From a virus, in the IMG/VR virus record IMGVR_UViG_3300017917_000577, positions 1-20,290 of that record: a stretch of DNA of 20,290 nt; one strand, 5' to 3'. Shown one piece after another: positions 2,336-9,009 of the stretch. How positions within the stretch are numbered: position 1 is the stretch's first letter; the number at the start of each line of letters is the position of its first letter. The position numbers and the translations under genes are program-made. The notes under the pieces are model-generated. The model worked only from the letters and a program-made list of their open reading frames with translations, searched no databases and was not told the DNA's origin.

Positions 2336-3805
2336 ATGAGTATCAATAACGAAAATTTGAGAAATGTTGCTCAAGCGGCATTAGATATTATGACAGAAAA
2401 AAAATTACATCCAAATCAACAAAAATTGGATGTGCATGAGCCAGAGAAAGATGAATTGACTGCTGATGATTTCAAAAAGCTTCGTGCTATGAAGAAAGAA
2501 GAAACAGAGCAAGTTGATGAGGCTATGCAGAAGGCTGATGTGCCTGCATACCTACGCAAACAGAAAGGTGAGAAACCATTATCTGTTGCTGATGTTAAGG
2601 CACCACGCAAAGATTCTATCTCTGCTTCAGAAAATTTAGCCAAAGCTCGCAACGAAGAAGTTGAAGAATTGGATGAAGCAGAAATTGAAAAAACTGCAAC
2701 TGGTATGCGTGTTTATGGTTCATCATATGGCAATTCACAAAGAGCTCGCCGTGAACAAGTTAAGAAATCTATTGATACAGCTAAAGGTCCAAAGATGAAA
2801 GATATTTCGGATATTGAAGCAGAAAAGAAGAAGAAAAAGAAATTCTCAGAATCTTTAGAAATCTTCAAAGAAAGTGGTATTAAAGGTTTATTTGGTTCTT
2901 TTATAAAAGAAGAGCCAGATAATGAAACATTTGCCAAAGAAGTTGAAGAAAATAAAAAGAAAGCTGCAGGTGAAGCAAAACAAGCTGATGTAGCAAAAGC
3001 TTCTGTAAAGGCAGTTCAATCTGAAGAAGTTGAACAGTTGGATGAATTGACTGGTAAAGGTAAATTGCCACAAATAGCAGCTTATCATAAACAAAAAGGT
3101 GATGAAGCTAAAGGTAAAATGGAAACGATTAGAAATACAAATAGAACCGTTCCTGTTCCTAAAGAAAAATCAGCAAAAATTTATGCTAAAGATGCCGAAT
3201 CAACATATCACTATACACAAGCTAAACGAGCAAAAGCTCTAATGGCAAAAGAAGAAGTTGAACAGTTGGATGAATTGAGTCCTGGTACTTTGAAATCTTA
3301 TATCAAAGGTGCTAAAGCCAATAAGAAATTTGAAGCAGATACACAAAATACCGCAATGCGTAAGGATGACCACATGATGGCGTCTGATGCTGCTGAAAAG
3401 GTTGCAAAGCGTAAAGAAGGTATTAAGACTGCTAAAGCAAAATTAAATGCTGAAGAAGTTGAACAAATTGACGAATTATCCTTGGATACTCTAAAGTCTG
3501 CTGCACAGAAAAACGCAGATAAAGCATATGAATACCATATGGATGATAACAAACATTGGGCAAGAAAATCTGCAAGCAGAGCGTTAAATCTTAAAGCTAA
3601 AATCGCTCGAAAAGAAAGACAAATGAAAGCGAATGAAGAAGTTGAACAAGTTGAAGAGCGCTCATTGACAGATGCTGAAATGAAAAAGCGTGAAACAATT
3701 GTAAAATCTATGAAAAAAGGTTTATCAGGTTTCAAAGAGCGTTACGGTGAGCGTGCAAAAGAAGTGATGTATGCCACAGCAACAAAACAAGCAAAAAAGG
3801 ACTAA
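2336..3805 (+). CDS. Lys/Glu-rich repeat protein with EEVEQLDE hinges
   Basis: A 489-residue protein preceded by a good ribosome site (AGGAG near 2323). It has no enzymatic motif. Basic, helix-prone segments are separated by six acidic hinges: EETEQVDE (55-62), EEVEELDE (107-114), EEVEQLDE (230-237 and 306-313), EEVEQIDE (373-380) and EEVEQVEE (434-441). Two hinges are followed by related sequence, LSPGTLKSYIKGA and LSLDTLKSAAQKN, matching a motif in the kinase gene. The C-terminus, with YGERAKEVMYATATKQAKK, is a recurrent phage module. L-D-E and I-D-E fit the T4 prohead protease rule (Leu/Ile-X-Glu), so the protein could be a precursor of packaged peptides. That is inference; a scaffold or core role is the alternative. 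Confidence 0.88.
   Translation: MSINNENLRNVAQAALDIMTEKKLHPNQQKLDVHEPEKDELTADDFKKLRAMKKEETEQVDEAMQKADVPAYLRKQKGEKPLSVADVKAPRKDSISASENLAKARNEEVEELDEAEIEKTATGMRVYGSSYGNSQRARREQVKKSIDTAKGPKMKDISDIEAEKKKKKKFSESLEIFKESGIKGLFGSFIKEEPDNETFAKEVEENKKKAAGEAKQADVAKASVKAVQSEEVEQLDELTGKGKLPQIAAYHKQKGDEAKGKMETIRNTNRTVPVPKEKSAKIYAKDAESTYHYTQAKRAKALMAKEEVEQLDELSPGTLKSYIKGAKANKKFEADTQNTAMRKDDHMMASDAAEKVAKRKEGIKTAKAKLNAEEVEQIDELSLDTLKSAAQKNADKAYEYHMDDNKHWARKSASRALNLKAKIARKERQMKANEEVEQVEERSLTDAEMKKRETIVKSMKKGLSGFKERYGERAKEVMYATATKQAKKD
2498..3658 (+). repeat. Dispersed hinge repeats, six copies in one gene
   Basis: Copies of the sequence encoding EEVEQLDE begin near 2498, 2654, 3023, 3251, 3452 and 3635. The copies at 3023-3050 and 3251-3278 are identical over 28 bases; the others differ by a few bases. 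Spacing is uneven (156, 369, 228, 201 and 183 bases), so this is a shuffled-module pattern, not a simple tandem array. Confidence 0.85.
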
Positions 3806-3806
3806 T

Positions 3807-4958
3807 ATGAAAACTGTTTCTGACATTTTCAAATCTATCAAGTTTGCTTCAATTGACCCTAAACGTCAAGGTGAAGGCCATAAGGGCGGTTCACAAGATG
3901 ATGAAGAACATTATACTGTTGGTGAAAAAGAATATGCTGAACAATTGAAACACGTCAAAAAACGTGCAGGTCAAGAAGTTAAAGAAGAATGGTCAAAGAC
4001 TGGTAAAGAAGCTACTCACCGTGAAACTGGTGAAAAGACTTATGAATACCATGAAGTAGATAAAGAAGGCAAACCAACAGGTAAACGTGAATATCGTAAC
4101 GCACAAGGAAAATCTATGGGTGAATCAGTAGAACAATTAGAAGAAAAAAATGTTCCTACATCTCCAGAAAAGTGGGCACAAGCAAAGGCACAAGCGAAAG
4201 CTAAGTTTGATGTTTATCCATCAGCATACGCCAATGGTTGGGCTGCAAAGAAATACAAAGAGATGGGTGGTGGTTGGAAATCTGTCAGTGAGGCAGTAAA
4301 GGATGAATTTGATGTTGGTGAATATGACCAAGAAGGTGATATGGCCAAATCTGATTTGCGTTCTATTATTGCTAATGCTAAAAAACTACATGACATGATG
4401 GAAGATTCAGACAATTTGCCTGAGTGGGTTCAATCTAAGATTACTAAAGCTGAAGATTACATATCAACAGTTGCCAATTATATGACAGCTGAAATGAATG
4501 AAGAATCTGAAAATTTGGATGAAGGCATGATGAAGCGCATGGCAACAGATAAAGAAGAAGATGCTCGCCTATCTAAACCACCTTTTGATAAACCTTACAC
4601 AACAACAAAAGGTACTGTAACAGATAAATCTGGTGCAAAACATGGTCCTATGTCCCGTGCAAGAGATTTAGCTCGTGCAGCTGCTAGAAAACAAGCAGGC
4701 ATCAAAGAAGAAACTAAAGATAAGAAAGAAACTGAATATCAAAAAGCTTACAAAGAAGCACGTAAGAGTGGTTCTTCAGTAGCTAATGCGAGAGCAAGAG
4801 CTGCAGGTGCAGATAATAAACACGTTTTTGAATCTCGTCAATTAGAGATTGTTAAAGAAGCGATGAAAACTGCAAAGAAAAAGAAAGAAACTAAGACTAG
4901 TGATGATACATTCCAAGCGGAACCAGAGTTGACTAGTCAAATAGTAAAAACAAACTAA
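3807..4958 (+). CDS. Modular Lys-rich protein with YPSAYAN and EYDQEGDMAKSDL modules
   Basis: The start is the ATG at 3807 (383 residues), with AAAAAAGGA five bases upstream; an in-frame ATG at 3771 lies inside the preceding gene and lacks such support. Modules in order: a hydrophilic N-terminus; ESVEQLEE (106-113) followed by NVPTSPEKWAQAKAQAKAKF and YPSAYANGWAAKKYKEMGGG; FDVGEYDQEGDMAKSDLRSI and NLPEWVQSKITKAEDYIS; EESENLDE (232-239); then a basic Ala/Arg/Lys-rich tail. The YPSAYAN and EYDQEG modules recur in cyanophage and pelagiphage-like proteins of unknown function. The hinges match those of the upstream genes, so I group it with them. No catalytic residues are recognisable. Confidence 0.87.
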   Translation: MKTVSDIFKSIKFASIDPKRQGEGHKGGSQDDEEHYTVGEKEYAEQLKHVKKRAGQEVKEEWSKTGKEATHRETGEKTYEYHEVDKEGKPTGKREYRNAQGKSMGESVEQLEEKNVPTSPEKWAQAKAQAKAKFDVYPSAYANGWAAKKYKEMGGGWKSVSEAVKDEFDVGEYDQEGDMAKSDLRSIIANAKKLHDMMEDSDNLPEWVQSKITKAEDYISTVANYMTAEMNEESENLDEGMMKRMATDKEEDARLSKPPFDKPYTTTKGTVTDKSGAKHGPMSRARDLARAAARKQAGIKEETKDKKETEYQKAYKEARKSGSSVANARARAAGADNKHVFESRQLEIVKEAMKTAKKKKETKTSDDTFQAEPELTSQIVKTN

Positions 4959-4998: not shown

Positions 4999-5559
4999 AT
5001 GGCTCTATGGGGAAGTTTAGACGCTAGTAATAATGCACCAAAACAGACTGATACAACAGGTTACGGTGGTACTACACCACAAGTAACTGCCAATGGTCAA
5101 GTTTATTACGCTAATACAGCAATTGGCGCTTATTCAGCAAGACAAGCAATTGGCATCTTTGGTGTTGATGCTTCAGAACAAGGTACAGCTACTGCTGCTA
5201 CTGGTGTTCCACAACACGCAGGTTGGGTAATTCGTAAAGTAGGTACAGGCCCAATCGTATCAATCACAGCTAATGCTGGTGCAGTTGGTACAAATAGTTT
5301 TATCACATTCTCAGGTGGTAATGGTATTGATGGTTCAGGCTCTACTGCTGCTAACGCTAGCGTTTCAGTAAATACAGCTGGTTACATCACAAGCATTACA
5401 ATTAATAATCCTGGTTTATATGCTAATACTCCAGTTGCTACACCAGCAAGTGGTAATGCCGTATTTACAGTTACAATGGGTGGTCGTGCAAACCGTGTTC
5501 AAACAGAAACATTGGTTGCGATGGGCTCAATGACTGGCGATAACGAAACAGTATTCTAA
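4999..5559 (+). CDS. Putative virion structural protein, Gly/Ala/Thr-rich
   Basis: A 186-residue protein with no Cys and much Gly, Ala, Thr, Asn and Val, typical of beta-structured virion proteins. It starts MALWGSLDASNNAPK. The second half has alternating patterns such as GPIVSITANAG, ITFSGGNG and AGYITSITINNPGLYAN, like glycine-rich beta repeats of surface proteins. It has the best expression signals in the window: a late-promoter-like site and a strong ribosome site. This suggests an abundant head decoration or other structural component. I do not recognise a named T4 counterpart. Confidence 0.82.
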   Translation: MALWGSLDASNNAPKQTDTTGYGGTTPQVTANGQVYYANTAIGAYSARQAIGIFGVDASEQGTATAATGVPQHAGWVIRKVGTGPIVSITANAGAVGTNSFITFSGGNGIDGSGSTAANASVSVNTAGYITSITINNPGLYANTPVATPASGNAVFTVTMGGRANRVQTETLVAMGSMTGDNETVF

Positions 5560-5933
5560 TGCGATTCAAAGAGTTTGTAAACGAATTGGCGGTACCACAT
5601 CTGCCACCTGTATCACTAGATGATGCGGTGGCGGAGTCCATCAATCGTCAATTTGACATACATCTCAACGATACAATTTTGTCTCCACAAATCGGTCTAT
5701 ATAAGATTCGTAAGGTGTTGAATAGTTATGGTTATGACTTGCCAGCACTTTACGAAGTTGAACCTGAAGGTGATGAAGTAGTATTTGATTTGGGTGATAC
5801 TGATTCGTTTGTGTATATCCTATATTATCTTACAGATGATGGTAATTATGATTTTTATGCCTTGGTGACTAATGAAGAAGGCATAAACGAAATAATGTCT
5901 GAAGATGAGGTTTTAGAAAAAGAAGAAGATTAA
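5559..5933 (+). CDS. Small acidic protein of unknown function
   Basis: A 124-residue protein starting on a TAATG overlap with the structural gene. The N-terminus MRFKEFVNEL resembles the FKEFI-X-E start of T4-type capsid-targeted proteins, though the residue three before the possible cut is Val rather than Ile or Leu. The middle contains LYKIRKVLNSYGYDLPALYE, and the end is strongly acidic. Translational coupling on both sides suggests it is made with the structural proteins. No known domain is recognised. Confidence 0.8.
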   Translation: MRFKEFVNELAVPHLPPVSLDDAVAESINRQFDIHLNDTILSPQIGLYKIRKVLNSYGYDLPALYEVEPEGDEVVFDLGDTDSFVYILYYLTDDGNYDFYALVTNEEGINEIMSEDEVLEKEED

Positions 5934-6325
5934 TGTCCTTTGATGATTTGAGTAGTGAAAATGTAATGTTATATGCGATGAAAGTTTATGATAAACCAAA
6001 TTGCATAATGAGTGAGTTCAAAGAGGACATGAAGCGTTTCAATTATTTGAAGCGACTGTTTTTTCGCTATCGTAAAATTGGTGAAATCAAAGAAAGACTA
6101 ATATTGAATCACTTGGTGGTTTTATATAACGTCTTTGGACCTGAGGCTGCAACCAGATTGCTTTTCTATAAAGTATCAAAAGAAGATTACTCAGTATTAA
6201 AAACATATTTGGTGTTTCTAAGTTGTATGCCAGAAAAAATAAAAGGTATAAAAGGACACGATATCATATCATCGGATATTCCAGTTGATATGACGATTGC
6301 TAATTCACTAAGGAATTTTGCGTGA
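5933..6325 (+). CDS. Conserved phage protein, DUF7207-like
   Basis: A 130-residue, helix-rich protein on a TAATG overlap. It contains MKVYDKPNCIMSEFKEDMKR, FNYLKRLFFRYRKIGEIKER and LILNHLVVLYNVFGPEAATR, a pattern I recognise as a widely conserved T4-like phage protein (DUF7207-type, from memory, not searched). It ends on a GTGA overlap with the fibre gene. Its position between a structural gene and the fibre suggests a virion or assembly role, which is inference. Confidence 0.83.
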   Translation: MSFDDLSSENVMLYAMKVYDKPNCIMSEFKEDMKRFNYLKRLFFRYRKIGEIKERLILNHLVVLYNVFGPEAATRLLFYKVSKEDYSVLKTYLVFLSCMPEKIKGIKGHDIISSDIPVDMTIANSLRNFA

Positions 6326-9009
6326 AAAAGTTTAGCCAACACATTCAACCTAAAGAAGAAAAAAAAGAACTTTCTCTAACGGAAAAAGTTTGGCTTGATG
6401 CTAAGAAAAAAATTGAACAAGAACAAAAACAATCTGAACAATATCGTTTAGAAGAACAACAAAAAGAAGAAGAGCTTCGTAAAAAACTTTATGTTGAAAA
6501 AATTGTTGATGTTAATGTTACTAGACAAGAATTTGTTGGTGAAGATTTATTTGAAGAAGAATCTGCACCAGAAGAAATAATTCCTGAGCCACAAACAATT
6601 ACTGAACAAGTAGTCATTCAAGGAACTCCTGGACCACAAGGTCAACAGGGACCGATTGGACCACAAGGACCAAAAGGTGATAAGGGTGAAAAAGGTGACC
6701 GTGGAGAAACTGGTCTAAATGGTTTGCGTGGTGAACGTGGTGAAAAAGGCGACACTGGCCCACAAGGTATTCAAGGTGAGCAAGGACTTCCAGGCCGTAA
6801 TGGTAAAGACGGAGCTAAAGGTGATAAAGGCGACCGTGGTGAGCAAGGCCTTCCAGGCCGAGATGGTGTTGATGGAAAAGATGGTCAACCAGGCCAAAAA
6901 GGTGATACTGGTGAGCGTGGCGAAAAAGGCCAAGATGGTAAAGACGGCCTCAACGGAAAAGATGGTCGTGATGGCCAAGACGGAAAACCAGGACCCAAAG
7001 GTGAAAAAGGTGACAAAGGTGACCGTGGCGAGCAAGGTGAACGGGGACCACAAGGACCAAAAGGTGATGATGGTGAAACACCAGATATCAAACCTTTTTA
7101 CGAAAAATTCAATAAACTATCGCTAGACATTAACAAGAAAGTTGGCCGTATCGTTGGTGATATGGGCGCTCTTGCTGGCAGCGGTGGTTCAGGTTCATAT
7201 TGGTTGAATGACTTAGGTGATACCGATTATTCAGGCATCGTCAATGCAACCAACAATCAAGTATTAACATACGATTCAACACTTAAAAAATGGACAGCTA
7301 AAGACCAAGGTGGTGGTGCAGCTGTTGGTACACTACAACAAGTTACCGAGAATGGCAACACGACAACACTAGGCATCACAACCGCTTCAGTCCAATTAAA
7401 TCTTACATCAGCAATTACAGTAACAACAGGTCAGATGGCATGGAATGCTCAAGACCTTACTGTTGATGTTGGTATGGCCAATGGTGTTACACTACAACTT
7501 GGCCAAGAACAATATATCAAAGTTAAAGCATCTGAAGATATTACCAATGGTCAAACAGTCATGTTTGCTGGTGCGGATGGTGAACATATTTTAGCCGCAA
7601 GATGTAATACTACGGTTACTGGTTTTAGACCAGAATGGTTTATTGGTATTGCAACACAAGACTTGGTTAGAAATGGTTTTGGTTATATTACCACATTTGG
7701 TAAAGTCCACAATGTAAACACATTGGCATTCCAAGAGGGAGAAATCCTATATGTTGATGCTAACACAGTTGGCGGTTTATCCAATACTGCACCAACAATA
7801 CCAAGACCGCAAATCACAGTTGCTGCTGTAACAAAGAGAGCAGGTGGTGATGGTCACTTAATGGTCAGACCAACCTTTGAAACGCAGCTTGCAATAGATG
7901 GTTATGTGAGTGCAGCTGCAGCCTATCGTCAAACAAATTTAGCGTTTGAAGCTGCCAATTCATCAGCATCATATGCTAACTCCGCATTTACTGTTGCTAA
8001 TAATGCGCTTACAAGTTCTAATGGTACAATCATTTGGAATACTGCTAACGCAGCCTTTTTACAAGCAAACACACCAAGTCATGTAGCAAACTCTGCTGCT
8101 TCTTATGCGAATAGTGCTTTCTTGGTGGCAAATAATGCTTTTACAAGTTCCAATGGAACTATTGTGTGGAATACGGCCAATGCGGCCTTCATTCAGGCCA
8201 ATACACCATCTTATACTGCTAACTCAACATCCAGTTATGCTAATGCAGCCTTCACTAAGGCTAATACCGCAATCACAACATCAGGTGGTTCAATCACTGG
8301 TCGTTTGAATGTTGCATACACTCCTGCAACCACAACAGGTTACGGATTAACAATCTCCTCGGCGAATACACAAGGTGGTACAGGCTATGCAGACTTCTTA
8401 AGAGTTACCAACACTTCTGCTGGTGCAACCAATCCAAACAAATCATTCCGTTTGACAAGTTCCGGCGACATAGAAATTATTAATAGTGATTATACCGCAT
8501 CATTATTAGGTTTAACCGACACTGGTGATTTTTCTGTTAGTGGAAAAATATCTGTTAATGGTGCTCAAGCAGTCAATGGTCCCGCTTTTTCTGCATATGC
8601 AGCTGCTATCTTGCAGACTATTCCAAATAATGCTCAGACCAAAGTTCTGTTCCAGACAGAAGAATATGATACAAATGGTTGTTACGCAAGTTCAAGGTTT
8701 ACTCCTAATGTTGCAGGTTATTACCAGTTAAATGCTGAAGTTCGTTTAGATGGTGCCAGTGGTACTGGTGAAATGATGATTATTCTTTACAAAAATGGTT
8801 CGGAATACAAACGAGGAACAAACCAAAGCGGTACACAAATTGCTTCGAATTTTTGGGCTATGCAAGTGAGTTCGTTAGTGTATGCAAATGGTTCAACTGA
8901 TTATTTTGAAATATATGTTCAACAAGGATCTGGTGGGTCTGTAACTGTGACCGCAGTTAATAACCCTGCTATTACTTGGTTCAATGGTTGTATGATGAGA
9001 GGTGCATAA
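6322..9009 (+). CDS. Collagen-like tail fibre with C1q-like tip
   Basis: The 895-residue protein starts at GTG 6322 (GTGA overlap), with AAGGA at 6310-6314. Domains: a charged coiled-coil N-terminus (~1-90) rich in Lys/Glu/Gln; 51 uninterrupted Gly-X-Y triplets (101-253); a linker with YWLNDLGDTDYSG; a beta-rich shaft (~300-520); an Ala/Asn-rich repeat region (~528-655) with 44-residue periodicity; and a C-terminal domain (~753-895) with PAFSAYAA, FTPNVAGYYQLNAEV and NGCMMRGA, which looks like a C1q/TNF-type trimeric jelly roll. The architecture predicts a trimeric fibre or fibritin-like structure with a receptor-binding tip. Assembly may need no chaperone because collagen and C1q domains both trimerise. 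Which virion part it belongs to is not shown. Confidence 0.9.
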   Translation: MKKFSQHIQPKEEKKELSLTEKVWLDAKKKIEQEQKQSEQYRLEEQQKEEELRKKLYVEKIVDVNVTRQEFVGEDLFEEESAPEEIIPEPQTITEQVVIQGTPGPQGQQGPIGPQGPKGDKGEKGDRGETGLNGLRGERGEKGDTGPQGIQGEQGLPGRNGKDGAKGDKGDRGEQGLPGRDGVDGKDGQPGQKGDTGERGEKGQDGKDGLNGKDGRDGQDGKPGPKGEKGDKGDRGEQGERGPQGPKGDDGETPDIKPFYEKFNKLSLDINKKVGRIVGDMGALAGSGGSGSYWLNDLGDTDYSGIVNATNNQVLTYDSTLKKWTAKDQGGGAAVGTLQQVTENGNTTTLGITTASVQLNLTSAITVTTGQMAWNAQDLTVDVGMANGVTLQLGQEQYIKVKASEDITNGQTVMFAGADGEHILAARCNTTVTGFRPEWFIGIATQDLVRNGFGYITTFGKVHNVNTLAFQEGEILYVDANTVGGLSNTAPTIPRPQITVAAVTKRAGGDGHLMVRPTFETQLAIDGYVSAAAAYRQTNLAFEAANSSASYANSAFTVANNALTSSNGTIIWNTANAAFLQANTPSHVANSAASYANSAFLVANNAFTSSNGTIVWNTANAAFIQANTPSYTANSTSSYANAAFTKANTAITTSGGSITGRLNVAYTPATTTGYGLTISSANTQGGTGYADFLRVTNTSAGATNPNKSFRLTSSGDIEIINSDYTASLLGLTDTGDFSVSGKISVNGAQAVNGPAFSAYAAAILQTIPNNAQTKVLFQTEEYDTNGCYASSRFTPNVAGYYQLNAEVRLDGASGTGEMMIILYKNGSEYKRGTNQSGTQIASNFWAMQVSSLVYANGSTDYFEIYVQQGSGGSVTVTAVNNPAITWFNGCMMRGA
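6622..7080 (+). repeat. Collagen-like Gly-X-Y repeat, 51 triplets
   Basis: Every third codon is a glycine codon (GGN) across 153 codons with no interruption. X and Y positions are mostly Pro, Lys, Asp, Glu, Arg and Gln, and KGD/KGE triplets stabilise unhydroxylated bacterial collagens. Longer near-repeats occur, for example the sequence coding GEQGLPGR at about 6775 and again near 6840. The 9-base periodicity creates long spurious frames on both strands. Confidence 0.95.
7963..8280 (+). repeat. Ala/Asn-rich tandem repeat, 44-residue period
   Basis: Two full copies (7963-8094 and 8095-8226; period 132 bases) and a partial third, anchored by SYANSAF or SYANAAF at residues 550, 594 and 638. Each full copy also has SSNGTI-WNTANAAF and QANTPS. 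Protein identity is high while many codons differ, so the duplication is not recent or is under selection. Confidence 0.88.

Follow-up and report, generated by a model that had tools for sequence, protein, structure and literature searches.

A multi-module protein of a T4-like aquatic phage with repeated protease-type hinges, a probable precursor of head cargo

We analyzed P0001, a Lys-rich protein of 489 aa encoded in a 20,290-bp stretch of viral DNA (the window), and found that it contains six copies of an acidic eight-residue hinge, which in related phages appears to bound exchangeable modules. P0001 is probably a modular head-cargo or core precursor of a T4-like myovirus that is cut in the prohead by an S77 protease. 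Among aquatic viruses, T4-like phages are some of the most abundant, and to our knowledge the contents of their heads beyond DNA are almost unknown. A readable joint, either an [LIV]xE hinge or an MKxFxxF[IL]xE start, would let head cargo be predicted from sequence in many uncultured phages, candidate host-takeover effectors included, and allows a direct test of multi-module packaging.

The window starts inside a gene whose frame is open from base 2. Its gene order (kinase/nucleotidyltransferase gene, DUF6321, P0001, a second multi-module protein, a structural protein, DUF7207, tail fibre, primase, thyX, nrdA and nrdB) resembles the matching stretch in T4-like cyanophages, HTVC008M and related contigs. 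The portal-protease-capsid region, with the prohead protease gene, falls outside this 20-kb window, and P0001 is found upstream of the tail fibre, primase, thyX and nrdA, not in the core-protein position between gp20 and gp23. The P0001 ORF is preceded by an AGGAG ribosome site, and its product gave no match and no recognised domain in Pfam and PHROGs, polyvalent-class effector and peptidase domains included. The ORFs adjoining P0001 belong to the same system, and the features of this cassette are listed below, with a slash at each junction.

2–2020, + strand: upstream gene, truncated at the contig edge, a Zeta_toxin-type kinase (Walker A AGGPGSGK) with DLRQWF and other modules
812–835, + strand: hinge-like site EEFEQLDE/D in the upstream gene
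1238–1255, + strand: hinge-like site EETLDE/V in the upstream gene
2017–2301, + strand: DUF6321 protein with the T4-type targeting N-terminus MINFKTFITE/DW; relatives have the same module behind hinges
2336–3805, + strand: P0001, probable multi-module precursor, 489 aa, mostly helical in the model, Lys-rich
2351–2398, + strand: N-terminal helix of P0001 (residues 6–21) ending IMTE/K, a candidate core-targeting propeptide with a putative first cut
2498–2521, + strand: hinge 1 of P0001, EETEQVDE/A
2654–2677, + strand: hinge 2, EEVEELDE/A
2900–2911, + strand: extra candidate junction FIKE/EPD in P0001, kept in homologues as hydrophobic-x-E/EP
3023–3046, + strand: hinge 3, EEVEQLDE/L
3251–3274, + strand: hinge 4, EEVEQLDE/LS, preceding the LSxxTLxSY module
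3452–3475, + strand: hinge 5, EEVEQIDE/LS, preceding a helical module (residues 381–440)
3635–3658, + strand: hinge 6, EEVEQVEE/R, preceding the conserved C-terminal module
3659–3802, + strand: C-terminal helical module of P0001, RSLTDAEMKKRETIVKSMKKGLSGFKERYGERAKEVMYATATKQAKKD, also present in cyanophages and in more than 500 viral contig stretches
3807–4958, + strand: downstream multi-module protein that includes the modules GEYDQEGDM and NVPTSPEKWA; translation probably begins at 3807 with MKTVSDIFKSIKF
within 4122–4145, + strand: junction VEQLEE/K in the downstream multi-module protein
4500–4523, + strand: junction EESENLDE/G in the downstream multi-module protein
5559–5933, + strand: 124-aa protein with the targeting-like N-terminus MRFKEFVNE/L

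The T4 late-promoter-like motif ATAAATA occurs three times in the window compared with seven expected (4961, 9728 and 12851, all on the + strand) and never before P0001; two of these sites lie shortly upstream of the genes at 4999 and 9742, and the motif is uninformative for P0001. The tail-fibre protein (6322–9009 of the window) has 895 aa and a long collagen-like Gly-X-Y stretch.

A sequence-only reading of this DNA had described six acidic hinges (EEVEQLDE and variants) in the P0001 ORF, and all six were recovered, with the triads LDE three times and IDE, VDE and VEE once each. Six hinges compare with 0.045 ± 0.21 expected, and a count of six was reached in 0 of 5000 composition-preserving shuffles, whereas bare [LI]xE was unenriched in P0001 (5 observed, 5.7 expected). 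The non-random element in P0001 is the extended eight-residue hinge, not LxE as such; an argument from exact LxE matches alone is weak, and that from the repeated eight-residue hinge is strong. Two more candidate junctions, DIMTE/K (residue 21) and SFIKE/EPD (residue 192), were mostly kept as hydrophobic-x-E in homologues, in searches whose patterns demanded the E. The segments between hinges had been called basic, which holds for most of them (42–113 aa in the core, net charge +4 to +9), the N-terminal segment being the exception at −2. The AlphaFold model of P0001 is mostly helical with low overall confidence (58.6), and only the last two modules are well predicted. A T4-type capsid-targeting sequence (aromatics at positions 4 and 7, [LI]xE at 8–10, a propeptide of 10–19 residues) is found in the cassette neighbors at 2017 and 5559 and not in P0001, which starts MSINNENLRNVAQAALDIMTE; the MKxFxxF motif is absent from this start and a helix ending in MTE is present. 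That helix (VAEAAAKIM) is similar in kind to scaffold N-termini (KLMEAAADIL).

To place the hinges among relatives, 160 loci were fetched from viral contigs by two module alignments; some are two stretches of one contig, and because two of the modules selected the loci, the statistics describe this phage group. We counted 485 hinges in the related loci compared with 22.8 expected (2664 ORFs, within-protein shuffling). Seeds picked solely on EE[VITA][ED] revealed Ile, Leu or Val at P3 and a conserved Glu at P1. A hydrophobic P3 was accompanied by Glu at P1 in 81%, and EEVEx?[DE]E by Ile, Leu or Val at P3 in 89%. Local alignments between hinge proteins ended on a hinge in 23%, compared with 6–9% for random masks of the same size on the same proteins. 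Hinge-delimited segments form families with many different neighbors (for the LSxxTLxSY family, 13 on the upstream side and 14 on the downstream side), and in an alignment of twelve P0001 homologues the N- and C-terminal modules were constant, with variable, hinge-bounded modules inserted between them. These comparisons indicate that the hinges are the boundaries of shuffled modules and that many related phages share this arrangement. When the hinges of a single protein were compared with each other, identical codons were slightly in excess (0.736 compared with 0.632); tandem duplication was rejected as the main source of the hinges because hinge-to-hinge codon identity in P0001 was near expectation (71 compared with 67 of 94).

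Conservation of the hinges in relatives had been proposed as a check, and when it was run [LIV]-x-E proved to be kept before unrelated modules. Before the C-terminal module (59 distinct sequences), P3 was Leu, Ile or Val in 95%, P2 Glu or Asp in 82% and P1 Glu in 100%, followed by Arg or Lys; the P3–P1 triad and the Arg/Lys alone were strongly conserved, with conservation fading further upstream, and at this joint the module itself may account in part for the P1 Glu and the Arg. The same form preceded the LSxxTLxSY module (n = 44; P3 Leu, Ile or Val 98%, P1 Glu 98%), the NVPTSPEKWA module (n = 21; P3 Leu or Ile 100%, P1 Glu 100%) and the DLRQWF module (n = 28; P3 hydrophobic 100%, P1 Glu 100%, P2 mostly non-acidic). 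A looser hydrophobic-x-Glu joint lies upstream of the DUF6321 module, and the EEPDN junction also fits, though its search pattern demanded the Glu. The upstream context of the GEYDQEGDM module had Glu nearby and no fixed triad, and this module was not counted as support. Judged by these alignments, several unrelated modules share a hydrophobic-x-Glu immediately ahead of them, regardless of what stands further upstream.

Many cassette genes begin M-K-x-F-x-x-F-[IL]-x-E, a pattern also seen in the T4 propeptide MKTYQEFIAE, ten residues long (record X04567.1, IPII). In the T4 propeptide, which is identical in IPII and IPIII, residues 4 and 7 serve targeting and residues 8 and 10 processing (PMC9026906). 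When N-termini were framed as M-x(1-3)-[FYL]xx[FYLM][LIVM]x-?, the last residue was Glu in 57% of 227 distinct N-termini compared with 9% internally. The same module can stand behind either element: MINFKTFITE/DWQKVNKSD in the window corresponds to EEIEIEE/DWQKVNKAD in locus L104, and MKNFKTFITE/GRPSQRHPLE to EEVEELDE/GRPSQRHPLE. For modules also found behind targeting N-termini, the triad stood exactly at the internal junction in 64 of 213 cases (30%; random 2.6%) and within two residues of it in 146 of 213 (random 12%). The hinge and the decapeptide MKxFxxF[IL]xE thus appear interchangeable before the same modules, with a gp21-type triad as the common element. Of the arguments presented, this apparent equivalence speaks most strongly for a processing site in the hinge. 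Complete relatives of the upstream gene (2–2020) start MKFxxFLxE, followed by a cytidylyltransferase, with the kinase fused behind; in HTVC008M the kinase is a separate gene starting MIPFILKE/GLYD, which matches the fused junction LLIE/GVHD.

The protease and its capsid substrate were sought in relatives, the window being a fragment without the portal-protease-capsid region. Among 20 long records with hinge-cassette modules, 17 contained an S77 prohead protease (PF03420) and 18 a Gp23 capsid protein (PF07068). An [LI]xE triad stood just before the mature part of the major capsid protein (MCP), at the place of the T4 site, in 17 of 17 readable MCPs, judged from sequence. Val occupied P3 in 26% of hinges, in 9% of targeting-like N-termini and in 0 of these 17 MCP sites.

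T4 has gp67 and gp68 between the portal and gp21, and several long relatives carry hinge modules between these two genes. An EF-hand-like module at the N-terminus of P0001 homologues is also found in a protein encoded between the portal and gp21 genes. In L178 and L176 this portal-gp21 protein contains a dockerin/EF-hand-like loop, DANKNGKVDGHDF, common to the N-termini of P0001 homologues and degenerate in the window. Hinges in scaffold proteins were weak matches and were not used.

Virion data bear on the cassette through cyanophage S-SM1, whose virion proteome includes the cytidylyltransferase T4-GC190 (PMC3037559). The gene for this protein (N-terminus MKKFSAFLNE) sits in the matching cassette, ahead of primase and nrdA. 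The protein is a syntenic relative of the family of the gene upstream of P0001, not of P0001 itself; the S-SM1 gene that follows contains EEVENVEE/G. The literature searched contained no usable virion proteomics for immuto, pelagiphage or HTVC008M.

Taken together, we propose that the P0001 precursor would join the prohead core, probably via its N-terminal helix, and that the phage S77 (gp21-type) protease would cut it after [LIV]-x-Glu at the six hinges and probably at two further junctions. Cutting would set free a number of small helical modules within the head, most of them basic. These pieces may stay with the DNA and be delivered with it, a step to which we give slightly less than an even chance. 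P0001 would be one of several head-cargo proteins encoded together in a cassette, a T4-type targeting decapeptide standing at the N-terminus of some of them, and the cut site would double as a fixed joint for module exchange between proteins and phages. If the cuts occur, the modules packaged per chain would be set by architecture, not by separate targeting signals. The earlier proposal of a precursor cut in the prohead gains partial support from comparison with relatives, which backs the processing-type joints; the cut itself, the location of P0001 in the head and the fate of its pieces are what we infer, and the exact [LI]xE matches contribute no enrichment. That lack of enrichment and the frequency of Val at P3 count against the proposed reading, as do the acidic EEVEQ context, which lies outside the known gp21 motif, the P0001 N-terminus without MKxFxxF, the position of the protease gene outside the window and the low AlphaFold confidence.

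The main rival is that P0001 is a core or scaffold component like T4 gp22, gp67 and gp68, cut so that its fragments leave the head, the peptides being waste. T4 core proteins are indeed cut at several sites and the fragments mostly expelled (PMC9026906), the N-terminal helix of P0001 resembles scaffold N-termini, and the EF-hand-like module recurs at the gp67/gp68 position. However, P0001 is basic, unlike the acidic gp22, its sister proteins have modules that look like effectors or enzymes (HicA, DUF6321, kinase and ferritin), in keeping with cargo, and modules are exchanged more freely than a load-bearing scaffold would allow; we consider this explanation unlikely. Somewhat less likely again is an uncut internal protein built as beads on a string, in which the hinges would be flexible acidic linkers, alike because modules recombine there. 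The coincidence of hinges with module boundaries and the slight codon-identity excess within hinge proteins agree with such linkers, but codon identity in P0001 itself shows no such excess, and it is specifically hydrophobic-x-Glu that is kept, also with a non-acidic P2 and upstream context (DLRQWF, EEPDN). Moreover, the conserved triad coincides with the ends of T4-type propeptides.

It is also conceivable that P0001 is a cytoplasmic, non-virion protein, Lys-rich, with acidic linkers that resemble gp21 sites by chance. We found no published detection of a P0001 homologue in virions in the literature searched, and P0001 has no known domain. Against this, its cassette neighbors have T4-type targeting N-termini, the syntenic relative of one of them is a virion protein, and relatives place hinge modules beside portal, protease and scaffold genes, so that we regard a non-virion role as very improbable.

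The proposed cargo precursor has partial counterparts. The sequence-only reading knew of no described system with a repeated-hinge precursor, which overstates the case: multiple cuts divide T4 gp22 and gp67 into fragments, of which a 2.5-kDa piece of gp22 and a 3.9-kDa piece of gp67 remain in the head (PMC9026906), and the multi-site propeptides of giant phages (PMC5694885) were also overlooked. T4 gp22, gp67 and gp68 likewise have several gp21-type [LI]xE sites per precursor, and relatives of one P0001 module lie between the portal and protease genes; unlike them, P0001 has basic, exchangeable modules with a fixed hinge between them, in a cassette near primase and nrdA and not in genes 20–23. 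T4 IPI–IPIII and Alt are basic head cargo cut at [LI]xE and have the decapeptide MKx[FY]xxF[IL]xE in common with the neighbors of P0001. However, they are separate genes with one N-terminal propeptide each (Alt adds a C-terminal one), whereas P0001 holds several modules in one chain with repeated sites, and its own N-terminus is a different helix. In phiKZ and in SPN3US gp53 and gp54, one head protein has multiple protease sites of the A/S/G-x-E type (PMC5694885, PMC10052503); there the multi-site part is a removed propeptide, whereas P0001 would be split as a whole into modules. Polyvalent proteins, multi-domain effectors with shuffled domains, are believed to travel in phage heads (Iyer et al. 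2017, PMC5512222); no such domain occurs in P0001, and the available part of that account describes no prohead-protease-like hinges. Multiple gp21 cuts with retained fragments, multi-site propeptides and multi-domain head effectors are thus known already, from T4, giant phages and polyvalent proteins, respectively. For a whole precursor in which a fixed protease-type joint separates exchangeable modules, we found no precedent in the open-access literature searched.

More broadly, we raise tentatively, as somewhat less probable than not, the idea that T4-like aquatic phages share a general cargo-polyprotein system. A fixed protease joint would allow modules to be gained, lost and exchanged in one precursor, which would be targeted whole, cut apart inside the prohead and delivered along with the DNA. 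Its modules would be basic peptides, HicA-type toxins, kinases, nucleotidyltransferases and DUF6321.

Across the related loci, hinge segments were basic, with a median charge of +6.6 per 100 aa and 85% of them positive, compared with −0.9 and 38% for other proteins. Domain matches among 120 hinge proteins comprised HicA (ten), DUF6321 (ten) and DUF5824 (two), with single matches to ferritin, DUF5661 and cytidylyltransferase; the ferritin-like domain matched with E 3.9e-25. In locus L004 (7105–7704), a HicA-like toxin module lies between the hinges EEVEVLDE/ and EEIEIDE/, ahead of a DUF6321 module. A hinge protein of ∼1430 aa in locus L053 (5453–9745) has nine hinges, together with a HicA toxin domain and a weak match to an intein.
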